From Methanotrichaceae archaeon (lineage in GTDB: Archaea; Halobacteriota; Methanosarcinia; Methanotrichales; Methanotrichaceae), in the NCBI GenBank assembly GCA_013178225.1, contig JABLXE010000007.1:62001-126000 (forward strand): DNA of 64,000 bases. The letters run 5' to 3'. Below the pieces are notes generated by a model that worked only from the letters and a program-made list of their open reading frames with translations, was not told the DNA's origin and did no database searches. Of this stretch, positions 1,591 to 35,978 are shown one piece after another. How positions within the stretch are numbered: position 1 is the stretch's first letter; the number at the start of each line of letters is the position of its first letter. Made by a program: the position numbers and the translations under genes.

Positions 1591-1863
1591 ATGCATTTGT
1601 CCCACATGCCCGATTCGGATGCGGTCGCCCAGAAGCTGCGTCAGATGCTGCTTGATTTGGGCGACGATCAGGTCATGGCCGAGGCCGAAAGGGCTCTGCT
1701 GGAACTGTGCGAGCGTGACCGCCGGATAAACGAGACCATGGAAGAGCTTCTGCAAGAGGTGGACGACTTGCTGCTTCGCATGGACAGGCTGGATATCGAG
1801 GCTCTCGAGTCCGGAGAAGACGATTTCTGCGAAGAGGGGAGGTCTCATGAACCTCCTGCCTGA
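1591..1863 (+). CDS. small acidic coiled-coil protein upstream of mptA
   Basis: About 90 residues, rich in Glu, Asp and Leu with heptad-like spacing (e.g. [19 protein letters not shown]), predicting a helical coiled coil over roughly residues 10-75. No enzyme motif is visible and I do not recognise the family. Its last 17 bases overlap the start of mptA, so translation is probably coupled. The start is uncertain: ATG 1591 or ATG 1606, with no clear ribosome-binding site. It may be a regulatory or partner protein of the pterin pathway, on context alone. Confidence 0.6.
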
Positions 1864-2800
1864 CATTCAGGCCTGCGTTCCCGATTATCCCATAAATCTC
1901 ACCCGGGTAGGAGTGACAGGCGTCAAGAAGCTGGTGAAAGTCGAGCGCGGCGGCGATGAGCGCCCGGTGGTGTTAATCTCCAACTTCGAAGTATTCGTGG
2001 ATCTTCCCTCGGACCGGAAGGGAGCAAACCTGTCCCGCAACTTCGAGGTGATCGACGACGTGCTGGAGGCGGCCATAAACCGGCCGGTATATGAAATCGA
2101 GGAGCTCTGCGGGGAGATCGCCCAGAGGCTGCTCTCCCGGCACGAATACGCCTCGCGAGCGGAGGTGAAGATGAAGAGCGAGTACATCGTCCGCAGGCAG
2201 ACGCCCTACACCAGGGTTAACTGTCAGGAAGTGGTGGACATCTTTGCCGAGGCCGTGGCCAGGGCCGGGCCTGATGGTTACGTGAGAAAAAAAGTGGGTG
2301 CCGAGGTGGTGGGCACAACAGCCTGTCCCTGTGCGCAGGAGATCATGAGGGACAAGGTCAGGCAGGAGCTGGCAAAGCTGGGATTGTCCCTAAAGGAGGC
2401 TGCCGAAATTGCTGAGCGGCTTCCCGTTGCCACCCACAACCAGCGCGGGCGGGGAAGCGTCTCCATTGAGGTGCGCAACCAGCGCTGCGTGTCGATTGAT
2501 CGGATCATCAGGATCATCGAGGAATCCATGAGCTCCAAGGTCTACGGCCTATTGAAGAGGCCCGATGAGGCGATGGTGGTCGAGAGGGCACACAGCAACC
2601 CCAAGTTCGTCGAAGACTGCGTGCGGTCAATGGCCCAGAAGGTCGTGGACTCCTTTCCGGACCTGCCCGAGGATGCTGCGGTCACGCTAAAGCAGATCAA
2701 TGAAGAGAGCATTCATCAGCACAATGCCTTTGCCGAGAGGGTGGCCACCATGGGAGAGCTGAGAGCTGAACTGGCACATATGGGAAGGGACCAGGCTTGA
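1847..2800 (+). CDS. mptA: GTP cyclohydrolase MptA (archaeal GTP cyclohydrolase IV)
   Basis: Fe(II)-dependent conversion of GTP to 7,8-dihydroneopterin 2',3'-cyclic phosphate, the first step of tetrahydromethanopterin synthesis. Without that pathway the organism could not carry C1 units in methanogenesis. The 317-residue protein has the family's normal length and opening ([22 protein letters not shown]), a [10 protein letters not shown] segment near residue 160, [10 protein letters not shown] near 195 and [12 protein letters not shown] near 250. ATG 1847 has a strong GGAGGT box at 1838-1843 inside the preceding gene. Its TGA overlaps the TTG start of the next gene, so the three genes form a translationally coupled operon. 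Confidence 0.95.
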
Positions 2801-3555
2801 ACGGAATAGATGGCATTGCCGCATCGTTCAGAGATCTGTTAAACGACAGGCCGATCATTGCCCGCTGCGAGCTTTTGGCCCGCAGCTACGAGTTCGTGAG
2901 GTCGGCCGACCTCAGCCCGGCCGAGAGACAGGAGCTGGAAAAGACGGCCGGAAAGGACATCTCCTCCGGGATTTTCAGGAGCATCATGAACGGCGAGCCG
3001 GTCTTTTCATCTCTGCCAAAAATTGACACTTACACCACTTTAAATGGCAGGATCTTTCATTTCCTGCACACCTGCGAGTACGGCCGACAGGATTTCGATG
3101 ATGCCTACCGCAAGTTCCTGCAGCTGCGTCCCGGCCTGAAGGCATTGATGCGCGAGAATCTGGCCCAGATCATGAAGGATTTCATGAGCGAAGCGGGATA
3201 CGACCTGACTCAGGAAAACCTGCCGGAGATGACCTTTGAGGCCGGCTCAAGGAAGATCCGGGCCCTGATAGCCACAAGCGTCAAGTCGCTGGACTCAGAA
3301 CAGTGCAAGCCGGGGTCGGAATCGGAGCTGGTGGTGCTGGTTCCCAGCGGAGAGAGCCTCGAGCCCTTCATGCTGTTCTTCCGGGAGCACGGCCAGGACC
3401 TTACCGAGGCCGGGGCGCAGGTTTGGATCGCCAATCTGGAGAAGGGAACTGTCGATCCGTTCATCGGCTACACCACTGACATGGACATCTACGAACAGTT
3501 CAATAATCCCCGGCTGGCGGAGATGGTCAGGGCCAACTGGACAGTCAAGAGCTAA
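2797..3555 (+). CDS. conserved-looking hypothetical protein coupled to mptA
   Basis: A 252-residue soluble protein starting at TTG 2797, overlapping the mptA stop (TTGA). No signal peptide or membrane segment. The first half is helical (e.g. [20 protein letters not shown]). The second half alternates strands and helices, with [15 protein letters not shown] around residue 180 and [13 protein letters not shown] around 210. I do not recognise a family or catalytic motif. Tight coupling to mptA suggests expression with the pterin pathway but does not establish a role. The start is fixed by the overlap rather than by a ribosome-binding site. Confidence 0.7.
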
Positions 3556-3947: not shown

Positions 3948-5639
3948 ATGAGGTTAAAAATTTCTGCACTGGCTGCACTTTCAATTTCGGTCGCATTTTT
4001 AGTATTGTGTAGTGCCGCCTTGGGAGTAGTTGGCGATAGCGGGGTAACAAACGATGTCCCGGCCACAGCCTCTGGCCAGAATTATGCTGGGGCGGGCTTG
4101 GATTCCGCTTTGGGAACGATATCCGGGAGCTATCCGGACCCTCAAATGAGCACAGCTTTCAATTATCAGGGCGCCGGTCCAGGCAGCGGATATTCACAGG
4201 CCCAGGATTATCAGGGAAGCCCGGCAGGCTCTCAAGCCTACGGTTACACTGCACCGCAGGCCACAGGGCCGTATCAGGAGCGGCTTTCGCCTGACGACCT
4301 GAGGCTCTCCATGCCGCAGGCCGAGAGCTTCCAGCCGGACAGCAACAAGAATTTCGCTGCCGCAACGCTTCCAAGCAGCCTCTCCGTCGAGGGCTACAGC
4401 ACAACCCAGACCAAGGCCACCTGGTACTATCCGGAGTTCAGCAGCTCCAATAACCGGTTTTATGCTCAAACCAGTTCCGGGCTCACGACCACGGCTGCCT
4501 GCAGCGCCGGCGGCTATCTGCCCCTGTGGGCGGACGTGAAATCTGCCGGAAACCTCTATGTTTACGAATGGTATCCAAACCAGCAGACTCCGTACATCAC
4601 CTGGGGCGGCTGGAACTGGCAGGGATGGAAGAAAGGATGGTTCGGGGGCGACTCGCCGGGCTGGCATATCCTCTGCTACAACTGCAGGGATTGGTCCAAC
4701 TACGTCTACATCTACGTCTATCCGGCCAATGCCTACGCCAATAGCTATGGCAATACCTATGGTAACGCTCCCGGCAGCTATGGAAGCGCTTACGGATCTG
4801 CCTACGGAACCACCTACGGAACTACCTCCGGCTACGGAGCCACCTACGGCTCAGGCTATGGCTCAGGCTCGACGGGCCCGGTCACCAGCGGCCTTGTGGC
4901 CAGTCATCTTCCCTCGGGAGCGCCCACTCCGCCCAACATCGACTCCGAGAAGCTGGTATTCCCAGACTACACCCTGATTGCGCCCAGCTCCACCACCTAC
5001 CAGTCTTCGGCGCTCTATTATTCCCTGGCAGGCATGTCCGGGGCGTCCGGGTACTCGACCGCGGGCAGCTGTCCGGGATGCAACGCCCAGGGCCAGTACT
5101 TTGCGGCCTCCGGAGGCTCCACTGGAAGCTCCTCGGCGGGCTATCCCACAGCCTGGACCGCTCAGGGGGCGGCTCAGGGAAGCTGCACTGCCTGTGCTAC
5201 AGCAGCATCCGGCAATCAGGTGAGCGGCTGCACAGGCCAGGGCAACTGCCAGACCTGCGCCGTGCAGGGATTCACAGCTCAGCCGGCTCAGGTCGTCCAG
5301 ACCTACCAGACGGTTTTCCCAGGTCCGTCCACCTATAAGTGCAACGAATACTACCTGCAGAACTGGCAGGATAACCTGTGCACTGTGGGAAGCGCCAGGT
5401 GCAATGAGTGGCTGCCCCTGTGGTCCAAGATCAGTCAACCGGGAAATTATTGGTCCTTTGAGTGGACCATGTGCGGCAGCAACGCGTTCTGCTCGCCAGA
5501 GGTGAAGAACTTCGGCTGCAAGGGAGCGGGATGGCATATGACCTGGTTCAGGGGCAACAAACCAGGCTGGTACGTGCTGAGCTACCACTGCAACGACTGG
5601 TCGAACTACGTCTACATCTACGTCTGGCCCTCAACCTGA
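3948..5639 (+). CDS. secreted Gly/Ser/Tyr-rich protein with duplicated WSNYVYIYV module (possible sheath or surface protein)
   Basis: 563 residues. Residues 1-28 form a signal peptide (MRLKIS, hydrophobic core, AALG). Two copies of a 75-residue module lie at about 184-259 and 485-561. Both contain LPLW, PGN or AGN, EW, a WF-x-G motif, PGW and the nearly identical DWSNYVYIYV end. Between them are a YG-repeat linker (about 266-308, units such as SYGSAYG) and a Cys-bearing low-complexity stretch with three CxxC pairs (375-378, 413-416, 434-437). Residues 40-150 are Gln/Ser/Gly-rich. Aromatic, low-complexity and beta-rich composition fits an extracellular structural protein. Methanothrix filaments have an amyloid-like protein sheath, and this protein has comparable size and style; identity with a known sheath protein is untested. 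ATG 3948 is preferred to the upstream GTG 3939. Confidence 0.75.
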   Translation: MRLKISALAALSISVAFLVLCSAALGVVGDSGVTNDVPATASGQNYAGAGLDSALGTISGSYPDPQMSTAFNYQGAGPGSGYSQAQDYQGSPAGSQAYGYTAPQATGPYQERLSPDDLRLSMPQAESFQPDSNKNFAAATLPSSLSVEGYSTTQTKATWYYPEFSSSNNRFYAQTSSGLTTTAACSAGGYLPLWADVKSAGNLYVYEWYPNQQTPYITWGGWNWQGWKKGWFGGDSPGWHILCYNCRDWSNYVYIYVYPANAYANSYGNTYGNAPGSYGSAYGSAYGTTYGTTSGYGATYGSGYGSGSTGPVTSGLVASHLPSGAPTPPNIDSEKLVFPDYTLIAPSSTTYQSSALYYSLAGMSGASGYSTAGSCPGCNAQGQYFAASGGSTGSSSAGYPTAWTAQGAAQGSCTACATAASGNQVSGCTGQGNCQTCAVQGFTAQPAQVVQTYQTVFPGPSTYKCNEYYLQNWQDNLCTVGSARCNEWLPLWSKISQPGNYWSFEWTMCGSNAFCSPEVKNFGCKGAGWHMTWFRGNKPGWYVLSYHCNDWSNYVYIYVWPST

Positions 5640-5849: not shown

Positions 5850-6479
5850 TTGGCTAGAAGATCACAAAGAAAAGCAGAAAGCAGAAAGGCTAAGCAATGG
5901 TATAAGGTAATCAGCCCCGAGATGTTCGGAAGATCTCCTGTGGGCGAGACTGTGGCACTTGATCCCGAAAAAGTTGTGGGCAGGGTAATTGAGACCACTC
6001 TAGGCGACATCACAAACAATTTCTCAAAGCAGAACACCAAGCTCAGGTTCAGGGTCGACCGCGTGGCTGGAGATGCCGCGTACACCAAGTTCGTGGGCCA
6101 CGAGATGACCACTGACTACATCAGGTCCCTGGTCAAGAGGAGAACCTCCCGCATCGATGCCATCGTCGATGTAACCACCACCGACGGCTACGAGGTCAGA
6201 GTCAAGCCCAGCTGCTTCACGGTCAAGAGAGCGCGCGCGAATCAGGTCAAGAGCATCAGAGAGATCTCAAGAACTGTGATCGCCGAGAAGGTCAAGGGCC
6301 TGGACCTGAACCAGCTGATTCAAGAGGTCGTTTTGGGCAAGCTTTCTCTGGACATCTACAAAGAAGCCAAGATGGTCTATCCGCTGCGCCGCGTTGAGGT
6401 CAGAAAGACTGAGATACTGACCGAGCCAGCGATTTCATCTGCGCCTTCGGCTCCCGAGGCTCCGGCTCCGGTATCCTGA
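5850..6479 (+). CDS. rps3ae: 30S ribosomal protein eS1 (S3Ae)
   Basis: Structural protein of the small ribosomal subunit in archaea and eukaryotes. The 209-residue product has the basic N terminus (ARRSQRKAESRKAKQWYKV), then ISPEMFG, the DVTTTDGYEVRVKP strand and KEAKMVYPLRRVEVRKTE near the C terminus, all typical of S3Ae. The C-terminal 20 residues are a Pro/Ala-rich tail. The start is TTG 5850, preceded by GGAGG at 5838-5842 with good spacing and followed at once by the conserved Ala-Arg-Arg; no ATG lies nearby. It has its own promoter and appears monocistronic. Confidence 0.95.
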   Translation: MARRSQRKAESRKAKQWYKVISPEMFGRSPVGETVALDPEKVVGRVIETTLGDITNNFSKQNTKLRFRVDRVAGDAAYTKFVGHEMTTDYIRSLVKRRTSRIDAIVDVTTTDGYEVRVKPSCFTVKRARANQVKSIREISRTVIAEKVKGLDLNQLIQEVVLGKLSLDIYKEAKMVYPLRRVEVRKTEILTEPAISSAPSAPEAPAPVS

Positions 6480-10275: not shown

Positions 10276-12008
10276 GGCTTTCCCTCCGTGGAGATGGCCC
10301 CCGCAGGACAGACCTGCTCGCAGAGTCCGCAGCCTGCACAGAAGATGGGATTGATCACCGGAAGCTCTCCCTGGTACTCGATGGCCGGACAGGCCAGCTT
10401 GAGGCACAGCTTGCAGCCCTTGCAAAGCTCAGGATTCACGACCCGCCGCATTCCCACCCGTTTCCTCTCCTTCAGGGGGCAAGGGGCCCTGAAGACTATG
10501 AGCGATGGAGCATCGGCCTCCAGTTCCCCGGAAATGGCCTCCAGGGTCGCATCCAGGTCGTAAGGGTCCTGAGTCAGGACGCGGTCTATGCCGCAGGCCC
10601 GGCCGAACTCCTCGATGGACAGGGCCTTCGTCGGTTCTCCGGATAGAGTCCTCCCGGTGCCGGGATGGTCCTGGTGTCCGGTCATGGCCGTGGTGCGGTT
10701 GTCAAGCACGATTATGGTTGACCGGCCCCGGTTGTAGCCGATGTCCAGAAGTCCGGTGATTCCGGAATGAAAGAAGGTGGAGTCTCCCACTATTCCCACT
10801 ACCTTTCGCGGCTCTCCGGCCTTTTCCAGGCCGTGGGCCATGGAGATCCCTGCTCCCATGCAGAGGATGCTGTCCATCCGGTCCAGGGGCTTGAAGGCTC
10901 CCAGGCTGTAGCAGCCGATGTCTCCGGTCACCACCACGTCGTGCTTTCCCAGCGCGTAGAAGACTCCCCGGTGGGGACAGCCCGGACAGAGCACCGGCGG
11001 CCTGGGCGGAAGGTCCTGACTAAAAGGCGAGGGCTCATCCTGCGGCATCTCGCAGCCTTCGAGCTTTGCCCGAGAGGCCCGCAGCCGGTCTATAGACAGC
11101 TCTCCTATTCCGGGCACGAACTTTCGGCCGGCGGCGGCGTAGCCCAGCGATTTGACGTGCTGCTCCAAGATATCATCTAGCTCTTCCACTACCAGGAGGC
11201 GCTCGATGCCGGAGGCAAACTGGTTGATCAGTGCGTCGGGGAAGGGATAGGAAAAGCCGAGCTTGAGGACTGAGGCCTCCGGCCAGACCTCCCGGACATA
11301 CTGGTAGGCGATAGAGGAGGTGATTATGCCCAGCTTCCGGTCCCGCCACTCGATGCGGTTGGCAGGGGAAGCCTCAGCCTCTTTCTTCAAAAGAACCAGC
11401 CGCTCCTCCAGCCGCTGCCTCATGGGCCTTCCCCAGACCGGAATAGGCACGAAGCGGGACGGATTCTTGACCAGGCCAACCGTTCCGGGAGCCCGTCTTT
11501 CCTCTTGGGCTACCAGGCTGCGAGAGTGGCTGACTCTGGTGGTGGAGCGCAGAATGACCGGAGTCTTGTACTTCTCGGAGATCTCCATGGCCAGCTTCAT
11601 GAAATCCTTAGCCTCCTGGCTGTCGGATGGCTCGAAGAGCGGAACCCTGGCAAAGCGGGCGTAGTTGCGGGTGTCCTGTTCGTTCTGGGAGCTGTGCATT
11701 CCCGGATCGTCGGCCACACAGGCCACCAGGCCCCCCTCGACGGTGATATAGGAAAGGGTCATCAACGGATCTGCGGCCACGTTCAGCCCCACGTGCTTCA
11801 TGGTCACAATTGAGCGCGCACCTCCCAAAGACGCTCCTGCTGCCACCTCGAAGGCCACCTTCTCGTTGGGGGACCACTCACAGTAAACTTCTGGCGCATA
11901 CCTGGCAAGGTTCTCGAGAATCTCAGTGGAGGGCGTTCCGGGATAGCCGGTTCCAACGGTCACGCCTGCCTCGTAGGCTCCGCGGGCGATGGCAGCATTG
12001 CCCGACAT
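10272..12008 (-). CDS. iorA: indolepyruvate:ferredoxin oxidoreductase, alpha subunit
   Basis: Large subunit with an N-terminal pyrimidine-binding domain (VTVGTGYPGTPSTEILENL), a TPP-binding domain near residues 345-480 (CPGCPHRGVFYAL, GDIGCYSLG, VGDSTFFHSGITGL), and a C-terminal ferredoxin domain with two clusters (CKGCKLCLKLACP and CAGCGLCEQVCP). Length 578 from ATG 12008. Homologues usually have a few residues before the GNxAIARGA motif, and here the frame continues upstream as K-H-L before Met without any ATG, GTG or TTG. A GGGAGGG box at 12029-12035 sits 8 bases before an in-frame ACG at 12018-12020, so the true start may be non-canonical. First gene of the operon with iorB and paaK. Confidence 0.93.
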   Translation of the reverse strand: MSGNAAIARGAYEAGVTVGTGYPGTPSTEILENLARYAPEVYCEWSPNEKVAFEVAAGASLGGARSIVTMKHVGLNVAADPLMTLSYITVEGGLVACVADDPGMHSSQNEQDTRNYARFARVPLFEPSDSQEAKDFMKLAMEISEKYKTPVILRSTTRVSHSRSLVAQEERRAPGTVGLVKNPSRFVPIPVWGRPMRQRLEERLVLLKKEAEASPANRIEWRDRKLGIITSSIAYQYVREVWPEASVLKLGFSYPFPDALINQFASGIERLLVVEELDDILEQHVKSLGYAAAGRKFVPGIGELSIDRLRASRAKLEGCEMPQDEPSPFSQDLPPRPPVLCPGCPHRGVFYALGKHDVVVTGDIGCYSLGAFKPLDRMDSILCMGAGISMAHGLEKAGEPRKVVGIVGDSTFFHSGITGLLDIGYNRGRSTIIVLDNRTTAMTGHQDHPGTGRTLSGEPTKALSIEEFGRACGIDRVLTQDPYDLDATLEAISGELEADAPSLIVFRAPCPLKERKRVGMRRVVNPELCKGCKLCLKLACPAIEYQGELPVINPIFCAGCGLCEQVCPAGAISTEGKP

Positions 12009-12363
12009 CAGGTGCTTCGTGGTCTGATCCCTCCCGTCCGTTCTCGACTCATTGACAATTCATTGATTCTTATTGATCGTTTGTGTTTATCTTTAGACAT
12101 TGCAGTCAGGTAGCGGTGCTGGTTTTTACGCTTATAACACTTCTGGTTTGGGCTGGCTAGGCGGTTGCGCGGCAAAATGGATAGAGTTCGATTTGGGTCC
12201 CAATACAAAAAAATCCTAAATTATATATAATTCTTTTGCAGTCGAATTCAGCTTCGAAAACGAACTCAAATAGGTCCTATTGGCAAATTATATATGAATT
12301 AATATCATGCCCATCTCTTGCCGACATGTTTTCAGGTCTGCAAATTAAAAAAATGGCATTTGG
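12009..12363. other. AT-rich intergenic region upstream of iorA
   Basis: 355 bases between iorA and the zinc-ribbon gene, both on the minus strand. Two AATTATATAT-type elements (about 12221-12233 and 12286-12297) could be promoter boxes. The iorA ribosome-binding site GGGAGGG lies at 12029-12035. I see no gene or RNA here. Confidence 0.35.
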
Positions 12364-12726
12364 TCATTTGGGTTTGAGGTGTCTACAAATTACCTCGTCT
12401 GAAATATTCACGTAGTGCTTTAAGACATCCGTGAATAGATTCTCCTGCATGTGCTTATCCATTCCGTAATTATCATCAATCCCCTGTCTTTCAAGTTCTT
12501 TGCATATTAGCCGCGTCTGAACCTTAGTGATCTTGATTTCCCTGCCAATTTCTGCTATTACATTGATATAATATCCAATTCTGCGGGGTTTTTCAGACGA
12601 CTCGTTCTTTAAAAGACCACAATCTTTGCAGAATAAATGGGGCTTTAGTCCTCGCTCTCTGCCCATATATTCATAGGGAAGCCAAACCCTTTCCTTGTCC
12701 CCGCAGCTTTTGTGATTGCACCGCAT
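12364..12726 (-). CDS. zinc-ribbon hypothetical protein
   Basis: A 120-residue basic protein. Near its start are CNHKSCG (residues 3-9) and, at 33-36, CKDCG, together giving a likely four-ligand zinc ribbon. The rest is helical (YYINVIAEIGREIKITKVQ). Small archaeal proteins of this type often bind nucleic acid, but I recognise no named family. Local composition is AT-richer than the flanking operons. No strong ribosome-binding site precedes the ATG at 12726. Confidence 0.7.
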   Translation of the reverse strand: MRCNHKSCGDKERVWLPYEYMGRERGLKPHLFCKDCGLLKNESSEKPRRIGYYINVIAEIGREIKITKVQTRLICKELERQGIDDNYGMDKHMQENLFTDVLKHYVNISDEVICRHLKPK

Positions 12727-13253
12727 ATCTTACCACTGGACCGAAAAATCCATGTTAATCCGCACATGATTTCAAGGAATTGATCATGAATTACAATATT
12801 GCTTTTATCAAGCAATTCATTAAGAGAGGCTCCAATTTAAAGTCTACGGAACTACTAATCGATGATATGAGGTAAGCAAGAAAATATAGAAAATATCATA
12901 AGTATTTAAAAAAATTTAACTTTTTTAAATTGAATATCTAGTTGTTTTAAATCACAACAGAAGAACCAGGAGTTCATGCTTCAGAAGCGAAGAAAAATGG
13001 AGCTATCTGACGAAACCTTTTTTTGTTAACTTCTCAAAGACAGAATTACTTATATTTATTATAAAAATTAGTTCATATAGTCTAGCGCGATTATATAACT
13101 AAATGCCCTGGAGTCTATTAAGGCTGATGGAAGGCAAGATAGATTCCAAAGCGGGTGTCAGCGATTGGAAAAAGTGGCCTGGGCTGCCAGGCCGCAAATT
13201 GCTCTGGAGACCTGAGGATCGTTCACCCAAAATCCGGGGATGGCCGGGAAGAA
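12727..13253. other. AT-rich intergenic region with inverted repeat
   Basis: 527 bases with no convincing gene. A perfect 10-bp inverted repeat (ATTTAAAAAA / TTTTTTAAAT, 7-base loop) lies at 12904-12930. TATA-like stretches occur near 13050-13063 and 13090. A 71-codon frame at 13103-13318 overlaps the phosphorylase 3' end and looks like a shadow. Confidence 0.35.
12904..12930. repeat. perfect 10-bp AT inverted repeat
   Basis: ATTTAAAAAA at 12904-12913 pairs with TTTTTTAAAT at 12921-12930 across a 7-base loop. It would form a weak A/T hairpin followed by an AT-rich tract. It could be a terminator-like element for transcripts from either side, or a chance product of the low-GC gap. Confidence 0.4.
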
Positions 13254-15767
13254 TTAATGATGCCACAGGATATGCGCATCCTCTATCGGCACCGAGGCCT
13301 CCGGGTGATGAGGTATGATCCTGGGGGTGAAATCTTCCGATGGCCGGTCGGCTGCGACTCTGCATTCATACCGGAACGCAGCCTCAGTTCCATCGACCGG
13401 CCCCTTCCTGGACATGGCAACTCTGACCGGCTGGTCTCCTTCGATTGGATCCGCATACAGCTCCACCCTTATCATCTCCGGCTTCATGCGCCCGAGATGA
13501 ACTGAGACCTCATAGATCCACCAATCGCCATCATTCAAGGTTCTCATATCGCCGAAATATAGGTCGCTCCAGTTCTTTGCCAGCTCTTTCTGCCAGCTCT
13601 GCAGTTCCGATGCCACCCTGGCTCCGTCGGCTATGCGACGGCGAAAGGCGGTGGCCGAAGGAAGGTACATCTCCTCCACGTACTCACGCATCATCCGGTA
13701 GCTGCTGAATTTGAGCGTGAGCCGTGACATGCTGGAGCGCACCCGCAAAATCCATTCCCTGGGAATTCCCTCCCCATCACGCCGGTAAAACTCTGGTATC
13801 ACCTGGTCTTCAAGCATTCGATATAGCTGGTCAGCCTCGGCAAAGTCCCATCCTTCGTCCTGGTGCTCCCTGCCGTCGCCCAGCGCCCAGCCCACCTCAG
13901 GACTGTAGGCCTCATCCCACCATCCGTCCAGCTCCGACAGGTTCAGGCCTCCATTGGCCAGCACCTTCATGCCGCTGGTGCCACAGGCTTCCATGGGACG
14001 CTGGGGGACATTGATCCAGAGATCGACTCCCGGCTCAAGTTTTTGGGCCAGAGCGATATCGTAATCCTCCAGGAAGACGATTCGGTGGGCTATCTCGGGA
14101 CGGGAGGCAAACCTGGCCATCTCCTGCACCAGCCTCCGGCCCTCCTGGTCATGGGGATGTGCCTTTCCGGCAACAATAAGCTGCACCGGACGTTCACTGT
14201 TCTGAAGCATCCTGGACAGGCGTTCCCGGTCCTTCAAAAGCAAGGTGGGCCTCTTGTAAGGGGCAAACCGCCTGGCAAACCCTACGGTCAGAGCGTCGTA
14301 GTCCAGGGCCAGGCTTGCCCTTCGGATTGCCTCCTCATCTGCCGCATGCTCTTCCAGCTGCCGAACCAATCTTTTCCGAACGTAATCTACCAGCTCTCTC
14401 CTGGCGTCGGACCTGAACTGCCAGAGCAGAGCATCGCTGATCTGCGACAATTCTTTGCATTCTGCGCCGCTCCCTTCGATCATTCCCCTGTCAGTTGCTA
14501 TCCGGCTCCATATCGAATAAGCCGGGAGCGAAGTCCAGGAGGGCATGTGGACTCCGTTGGTGACGTGGGTGACCGGCACCTCCGGTCTCGGCCAGCGGGG
14601 ATAAAGCGGCTGGAATATCTTCTGGCTCACCTTCCCGTGAAGCCTGCTGACTCCGTTGACCTGAAAGCTGCCCCGGGCGGCCAAGACCGCCATAACCAGA
14701 GGCGCTTCCTCGTTCTGGTATTCCATCCGGCCCAAATTGGGAAGCTGGTCCAGCGGGACCCCGACCAAATCCGCGTATTGTTGGGCATACTGTCTGATCA
14801 GATCGGGCTCAAAACTATCAAAGCCGGCTGCAACGGGCGTATGGGTGGTGAAGATATTGCCCGCGCGGGTGGCCCAGAGGGCAACGGATATGGGGACTTT
14901 GGCCTTCTTCATGAAAGAATAAGCTCTGGCAATGACCGCAAAGGCGGCATGTCCTTCGTTGAGATGGCAGACATCGGCCTCTATTCCAAGCTCCTCCAGA
15001 GCCATCCAGCCAATGAATCCCAGGATAATCTCCTGTATGAAGCGCCTTTCTTTCCCGGGATCGTACAGGTTGGCGGTAATGGTCCTGTCCCAGGGACTGT
15101 TCAGAGGATCGTTGGAGTCTAGGAGGTAAAGCTGCACCCTTCCCACCTGGGCCTCCCAGACCCGGATGAAGATCGACCTTCCAGGCAGGTGGAATTTCAT
15201 CCGCAGCCAGCTTCCGTCCGGCTTTAGGGCCGGAGATACCGGCAGGCTCATGGGATCGTTATAGGGAAAGGCCTCGATCTGGGAGCCGTCCCGGGCCAGC
15301 ACCTGGCGGAAGTATCCCTGCTGATAGAGGAGTCCCACTCCAACTACAGGAACGCCCATGTCGCTGGCTGTCTTGAGGTGGTCCCCGGCCAAAATTCCGA
15401 GACCGCCTGAATAAATGGGCAGGGCTTCGGACAGGCCGAACTCCATGCTGAAATAGGCAACTGTTCCTATAGATTTGTGGTATCCGTTCTCCTGGAACCA
15501 GTTCTGTTCCTCCATAGACCATCTCCTCCGTCTCAGCCAGAGGCTCAATAGCTCCTTCAGCTCTTCATCTTTGGCCGCTTCCTCCAATCTGCTCTGGGAG
15601 ATGTTCTGCAAGATCAGATATGGGTTGTGAGTCCTTTCCCAGGCATCAGGATCCAGGCGCTCCCATATCTGGTCATAGATCATTCGCTTGTTCCAGCGAA
15701 GGTCCAAAGCTAGCTCTAAAAGACCTTCCAATCCTTCAGGAAGGGTTCTCTGAAAGACCACACCCAT
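13254..15767 (-). CDS. glgP: alpha-glucan (glycogen/maltodextrin) phosphorylase, GT35
   Basis: Cleaves alpha-1,4-glucans with phosphate to glucose 1-phosphate, using pyridoxal phosphate. The 837-residue protein has an N-terminal segment typical of the archaeal/Thermotoga-type enzymes (residues 1-90), then YFSMEFGLSEALPIYSGGLG near 105, HLNEGHAAF near 270, THTPVAAGFD near 310, VTHVTNGVH near 405, and the PLP-lysine motif EACGTSGMKVLANGG near 610-625. The last 120 residues form an extra beta-rich tail (WWIYEVSVHLGRMKP). It probably mobilises stored glycogen. The gene stands alone, with a long AT-rich region on either side. Confidence 0.93.
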   Translation of the reverse strand: MGVVFQRTLPEGLEGLLELALDLRWNKRMIYDQIWERLDPDAWERTHNPYLILQNISQSRLEEAAKDEELKELLSLWLRRRRWSMEEQNWFQENGYHKSIGTVAYFSMEFGLSEALPIYSGGLGILAGDHLKTASDMGVPVVGVGLLYQQGYFRQVLARDGSQIEAFPYNDPMSLPVSPALKPDGSWLRMKFHLPGRSIFIRVWEAQVGRVQLYLLDSNDPLNSPWDRTITANLYDPGKERRFIQEIILGFIGWMALEELGIEADVCHLNEGHAAFAVIARAYSFMKKAKVPISVALWATRAGNIFTTHTPVAAGFDSFEPDLIRQYAQQYADLVGVPLDQLPNLGRMEYQNEEAPLVMAVLAARGSFQVNGVSRLHGKVSQKIFQPLYPRWPRPEVPVTHVTNGVHMPSWTSLPAYSIWSRIATDRGMIEGSGAECKELSQISDALLWQFRSDARRELVDYVRKRLVRQLEEHAADEEAIRRASLALDYDALTVGFARRFAPYKRPTLLLKDRERLSRMLQNSERPVQLIVAGKAHPHDQEGRRLVQEMARFASRPEIAHRIVFLEDYDIALAQKLEPGVDLWINVPQRPMEACGTSGMKVLANGGLNLSELDGWWDEAYSPEVGWALGDGREHQDEGWDFAEADQLYRMLEDQVIPEFYRRDGEGIPREWILRVRSSMSRLTLKFSSYRMMREYVEEMYLPSATAFRRRIADGARVASELQSWQKELAKNWSDLYFGDMRTLNDGDWWIYEVSVHLGRMKPEMIRVELYADPIEGDQPVRVAMSRKGPVDGTEAAFRYECRVAADRPSEDFTPRIIPHHPEASVPIEDAHILWHH

Positions 15768-35906: not shown

Positions 35907-35978
35907 AGCCAAGGTCCGGATTCGAACCGGAGTGGTATTGCTCTGCAGGCAATTGCGTAGCCGCTCCGCCACCTTGGC
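35907..35978 (-). tRNA. tRNA-Cys(GCA)
   Basis: The minus strand folds as a tRNA. The 7-bp acceptor GCCAAGG pairs with CCTTGGC. The anticodon arm ATTGC/GCAAT has loop CTGCAGA, giving anticodon GCA. The T arm CTCCGG-TTCGAAT-CCGGA is standard. Discriminator base U is typical of tRNA-Cys. CCA is not encoded. A TATA-like CTTATTAACA (minus strand, near 36013-36022) lies about 39 bases before the 5' end, similar to the spacing at tRNA-Pro. Confidence 0.95.

Follow-up and report, generated by a model that had tools for sequence, protein, structure and literature searches.

The window, by which we mean the whole 64,000-nucleotide stretch of Methanotrichaceae DNA analysed here, carries a gene for a secreted protein that is universal in its archaeal family and has a motif-linker-domain build, with two constrained immunoglobulin-like domains set among fast-evolving, disordered linkers. 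We take this protein to be a conserved accessory component of the cell envelope in Methanotrichaceae; its association would most likely be with the sheath, as a hoop linker, a sheath-to-S-layer bridge or a spacer-plug, and we would give this reading an even chance of being right. Few known biological tubes match the archaeal sheath in toughness, and only its hoop proteins have been identified. Methanothrix is one of the leading producers of methane and forms the backbone of anaerobic granules.

The coding sequence is intact, from an ATG at 3948, which agrees with the alignment of orthologs, to a stop codon at 5637-5639, and its product has 563 amino acids and a mass of 59.7 kDa (Table 1). The N-terminal hydrophobic signal bears out the original prediction that the protein is secreted; the protein lacks a membrane anchor and any sorting signal of a known type, and its C-terminus follows directly after the second module. 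The motif WSNYVYIYV occurs at residues 249 and 551, and the two modules that it closes align by BLASTP with 38% identity over 97 amino acids (E 3e-21), so that the homologous modules first claimed are a true internal duplication. The unit is longer than the 75 residues proposed, since a profile of both modules across orthologs sets it at approximately 98 amino acids. Of the 10 YG dipeptides in the protein, nine fall within 45 residues, a clustering reached in none of 5000 shuffles, and the total count is not unusual against shuffles (p 0.07). There are 18 cysteines, 17 of them outside the signal peptide, and four CxxC motifs.

Table 1. Features of the two-module gene and its conserved neighbours, in window coordinates.
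Feature	Position	Strand	Basis
mptA/folE2-type GTP cyclohydrolase, conserved upstream context	1847..2800	+	Pfam GCHY-1; upstream with the DUF6834 gene in >20/44 loci
DUF6834 protein, conserved upstream context	2797..3555	+	Pfam; upstream with mptA in >20/44 loci
CDS, 563 aa, secreted two-module protein	3948..5639	+	ORF; start backed by ortholog alignment
Signal peptide, residues 1-26	3948..4025	+	Hydrophobic N-terminus; A24/G26/G29 conserved in nearly all orthologs
Variable disordered Gly/Ser/Gln/Tyr-rich linker, residues 27-98	4026..4241	+	Pairwise identity 0.26, gap fraction 0.52; pLDDT ~30
Conserved linear segment GPYQE...L.L..P..ESF.PD..L.F, residues 99-145	4242..4382	+	Pairwise identity 0.52, gap-free in orthologs
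Module 1, predicted immunoglobulin-like sandwich, residues 168-260	4449..4727	+	Profile E 4e-42; AlphaFold2 pLDDT 89, pTM 0.79; dN/dS 0.06-0.14 (nine ortholog pairs)
Tyr-Gly repeat stretch peculiar to the window copy, residues 266-306	4743..4865	+	9 YG in 45 residues; whole orthologs have 0-6 YG
Conserved linear motif GAPTPP..SE.L..P, residues 321-345	4908..4982	+	Pairwise identity 0.57, gap-free; similar GAPTP...S..E.L in single-module paralogs
Cys-rich linker with CPGC, CTAC and CQTC, residues 375-437	5070..5258	+	Ortholog Cys mostly 8-17, CxxC 0-4
Module 2, predicted immunoglobulin-like sandwich, residues 464-561	5337..5630	+	Profile E 3e-46; same strand order in full-length model; dN/dS 0.05-0.16
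Ribosomal protein eS1 (S3Ae)	5850..6479	+	Pfam; near neighbour, normally directly downstream, in 34/44 loci

That the module lies outside known domains, as originally supposed, is upheld by profile and sequence searches. Pfam and NCBIfam offered no family for the protein at E values up to 1, no relative of the protein or the module was found among PDB sequences, and PHROGs returned a single meaningless match (E 0.086). A viral origin was rejected: in two scans of viral contigs neither the whole protein nor the module found a match, and a viral fold search gave only generic, mostly weak matches. AlphaFold2 models the full protein as two beta domains at a confidence of approximately 80 joined by disordered linkers, and a single module, predicted from an 85-row alignment, as nine strands with a mean pLDDT of 89 and a pTM of 0.79, in which WSNYVYIYV forms the last strand. 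Foldseek matches in the PDB are immunoglobulin-like domains almost throughout, with TM scores of 0.5-0.67 for the better matches and E values no better than 2e-3, so that the module conforms to the immunoglobulin-like fold (a Greek-key beta-sandwich of 7-9 strands) at the level of fold and not of homology. The module is an undescribed immunoglobulin-like domain with its own invariant pattern, EW...WF...GW..SNY.Y.YV.

This prediction bears directly on the original suggestion that the protein is itself an amyloid-like or otherwise insoluble polymer subunit of the sheath. Sheaths are amyloid-like (PMC6242892), and two imperfect repeats, aromatic beta strands and Gly/Ser/Gln-rich linkers would suit such a subunit; but the modules look globular rather than amyloid, the confident sandwich prediction and the immunoglobulin-like Foldseek matches together arguing against their being amyloid units, and the aromatic 'ends' become the last strand of a domain. 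The linkers, moreover, are variable, with a YG repeat peculiar to the window copy, and there is no homology to the known sheath proteins; we give a polymer subunit little credence. The sheath proteins described so far comprise MspA of M. thermoacetophila, with a mass of 60.9 kDa, and the SH family (PMC6242892, PMC11576556). Published sheath mass spectrometry has named only MspA-type proteins (PMC6242892), and MspA is rare in Methanotrichales (PMC11576556). We placed MspA (ABK14853.1) at G046:C1:1154521-1156248 in M. thermoacetophila on the basis of its mass and partner gene, the product having 575 amino acids and a mass of 60.9 kDa and another secreted protein being encoded alongside; the placement is likely and not certain, because the published text gives two cysteines and the placed reading frame has three. 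Comparison with it, by which the original prediction could be checked, gave E values above 1 by default blastp and of 1 by profile, and identity with MspA was rejected. The SH genes of M. thermoacetophila were picked by gene order, counting back from Mthe_0677, and an SH protein used as query matched multi-copy homologs, as published; homology of the window protein to SH proteins was likewise rejected by sequence, the best profile E being 0.13 and default BLAST E values above 1. MspA is absent from the window's genome, which has at least five SH homologs (among them G000:C22:335109-341229, C12:142274-143071 and C9:33410-34114), and this organism therefore probably makes a sheath of the SH type. 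Two of the SH homologs, on C22, flank a large membrane-protein gene.

The module has a wider family. Two single-module paralogs are present in the window's genome, together with a third and more distant module protein at C12:12319-13014 (L134:3319-4014, minus strand), whose closest relatives include proteins from family f11. A tree of 87 modules unites every second module with four single-module orthologs (support 99) and sets the paralogs apart in another group, which places the internal duplication before the spread of the family; the four single-module orthologs have probably lost module 1, to judge from their position in the tree. An AU test rejected module 1 as a single clade, a result that was traced to two truncated module-1 copies (L058 and L062) outside the named set. 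Since the conserved motif between the modules resembles that ahead of the module in the paralogs, the ancestral unit may have comprised motif, linker and module. Distant single-module relatives of approximately 240 amino acids occur in tandem (L125:3825-5018; L126:4722-6124 and 11943-13490, in genome G015; also L127 and L128). Genome G015 we take to be M. soehngenii, and there and in L127 the tandem genes adjoin secreted proteins with a Pfam Transglut_core domain, a possible cross-linking partner.

Conservation is concentrated in the modules. Among orthologs these have 67-69% pairwise identity and are almost gap-free, against 21-33% in the linkers, where at least half of the columns are gapped; nearly all full-length orthologs retain both modules, and two linear segments outside them (residues 99-145 and 321-345) are also conserved without gaps. 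Nine close pairs gave dN/dS values of 0.05-0.16 for the modules, which points to strong purifying selection on them, and of 0.13-0.38 for the linkers. Whole orthologs mostly have 8-17 cysteines, 0-4 CxxC motifs and 0-6 YG dipeptides. Hence the YG repeat and CxxC region to which the original prediction drew attention is present in the window protein but not conserved beyond it, and both stretches are, on the alignments, variable decoration. The same variability weighs on another explanation, that the protein is a secreted binding protein of the pseudoperiplasm unrelated to the sheath, handling a metal, a substrate or redox equivalents, with cysteine, tryptophan and tyrosine serving as ligands or in electron transfer. 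Its many cysteines and its content of aromatic residues (15.6% of the protein) would fit such a role, and a part in electron uptake has been suggested for aromatic surface proteins (PMC10470525), but the number of cysteines and of CxxC motifs changes between orthologs, there is no heme CxxCH motif and no redox domain was matched, and we think this explanation improbable. The orthologs from Methanothrix sp. MAG 280 (L049:5953-7272) and Candidatus Methanocrinis natronophilus Mx (L051:5953-7248) have five cysteines and no CxxC; strain Mx is an obligate alkaliphile.

The protein was found in 49 of 50 Methanotrichaceae genomes, the exception being 56% complete, and in none of 188 other Methanosarcinia genomes. 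Its named relatives all come from Methanothrix, Methanosaeta, Methanocrinis or other Methanotrichaceae, some being assigned only to order or phylum; the source organism is possibly not Methanothrix proper, because none of the other family members among the 50 genomes examined shares its genus code. Gene context was compared at 44 loci, that of the window included; eS1 is a near neighbour in 34 of them and the mptA and DUF6834 genes lie upstream in more than 20, indicating a single locus that has been kept vertically. No sheath genes lie near the gene at these 44 loci, where the neighbours are housekeeping genes such as eS1 and mptA. In the M. thermoacetophila group the gene has moved to another context. 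The M. thermoacetophila ortholog lies at about 1,857,000-1,858,340 on the minus strand of CP000477, and directly downstream of it is the gene for a 317-amino-acid secreted protein (L096:10807-11757, minus strand) that matches part of the module (E 3e-6) and has a CarboxypepD_reg domain, a neighbour kept beside the gene in this group only. Rfam gives one match above its gathering score in the window, a tRNA at 35907-35978 on the minus strand.

A link to sheathed archaea, which had been proposed from the outset, is supported by where the protein occurs, its distribution following that of archaea with sheath proteins. Three queries (the module profile, a sister-module profile built partly from f11 sequences, and an SH protein) were run against 393 genomes of the phylum. 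Module and SH occur together in all 14 Methanotrichaceae of this set; elsewhere, module relatives were found in five genomes, from families f10 and f11 only, and SH in six (one of them weak) from the same two families. Both are present in three of the five module-bearing genomes outside Methanotrichaceae, a coincidence with a hypergeometric probability of 1e-5 to 2e-5, the genomes being related and many of them incomplete. The f10 match is a secreted protein, and contamination of that genome is unlikely because the G+C content of its contig is close to that of the contig carrying SH in the same genome. Within f11 alone the overlap is two genomes (four with the module and ten with SH, of 51) and is not significant (p about 0.17); some SH-bearing genomes are without the module, and the distribution of the protein within Methanotrichaceae may simply follow descent. 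Methanocrinis, which has an ortholog (L051), grows in sheaths (PMC10598746).

Accessory factors that turn fibrils into a sheath, and plug proteins, have been reported as missing (PMC6242892, PMC11576556), and extra densities near the plugs and plug proteins without an identity have been described (PMC10593813, PMC6242892). The protein is a good and concrete candidate for such a part because it is secreted, near-universal in its family, encoded at a single locus and strongly constrained, and because its domain has kin only in families with SH sheath proteins. In proposing a mechanism, we suppose that after Sec export the protein would be free of any membrane anchoring, and that its two immunoglobulin-like domains, rich in invariant tryptophan and tyrosine, would bind at two places to an envelope partner, which might be an SH hoop, a plug, the S-layer or a glycan. 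The flexible, Cys-rich linkers would bridge the distance from one binding site to the other and disulfides would lock them, so that the protein, itself non-amyloid, would tether a sheath of amyloid type built of SH proteins; reducing agents are needed for sheath disassembly (PMC6242892). A bolder version, which we hold only tentatively, is that the window protein founds a family of accessory or plug proteins of non-amyloid type, common to sheath-making archaeal lineages, in which immunoglobulin-like modules on disulfide-forming disordered linkers would tie or cap the amyloid hoops of SH. Literature searches found nothing on the localisation, expression or proteomics of the protein, nor any paper on the estimated locus tags Mthe_1697-1702 in M. 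thermoacetophila.

The protein might instead be a surface adhesin or matrix protein, located on the sheath or shed from it, that attaches to other cells or granule polymers, its conserved surface aromatics recognising glycans or other proteins. Long disordered arms bearing immunoglobulin-like domains are typical of adhesins, the weak Foldseek matches include sugar-binding sandwiches such as the carbohydrate-binding domain of Wzt, and Geobacter cells attach to the sheaths of M. thermoacetophila (PMC10470525). Adhesins, however, usually vary between species in the number and sequence of their domains, while here the modules are among the most constant parts of a protein fixed at a single locus, and a membrane anchor or known sorting signal is lacking; we therefore judge an adhesin rather unlikely and prefer the sheath-associated accessory component.

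Several known proteins and domains invite comparison. With immunoglobulin-like beta-sandwich domains at large the module shares its fold and its 8-9 strands, Foldseek matching it to the V domains of antibodies and T-cell receptors, filamin and similar proteins, but it is without sequence similarity to any family model. The single-module paralogs (L002, L003; L073-L084), which occur in the same genomes, have the same module preceded by a similar motif, GAPTP..S..E.L, and differ in carrying one module only and in forming a separate group in the tree (SH-aLRT 99). MspA comes from the same archaeal family and is likewise secreted, about 60 kDa, low in charge and aromatic; the two are not homologous in sequence, however, and MspA is absent from the window's genome whereas the protein described here is family-universal. 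The SH proteins (Methanospirillum Mhun_2271; Methanothrix Mthe_0667/0668) are also secreted beta proteins of sheathed archaea, but they are multi-copy where the window protein is single-locus, and again sequence homology is wanting. Their published core consists of two six-stranded antiparallel, amyloid-like sheets that assemble into rings (PMC11576556); for the window protein the predicted strand layout and the Foldseek matches are immunoglobulin-like, with disorder in the linkers.
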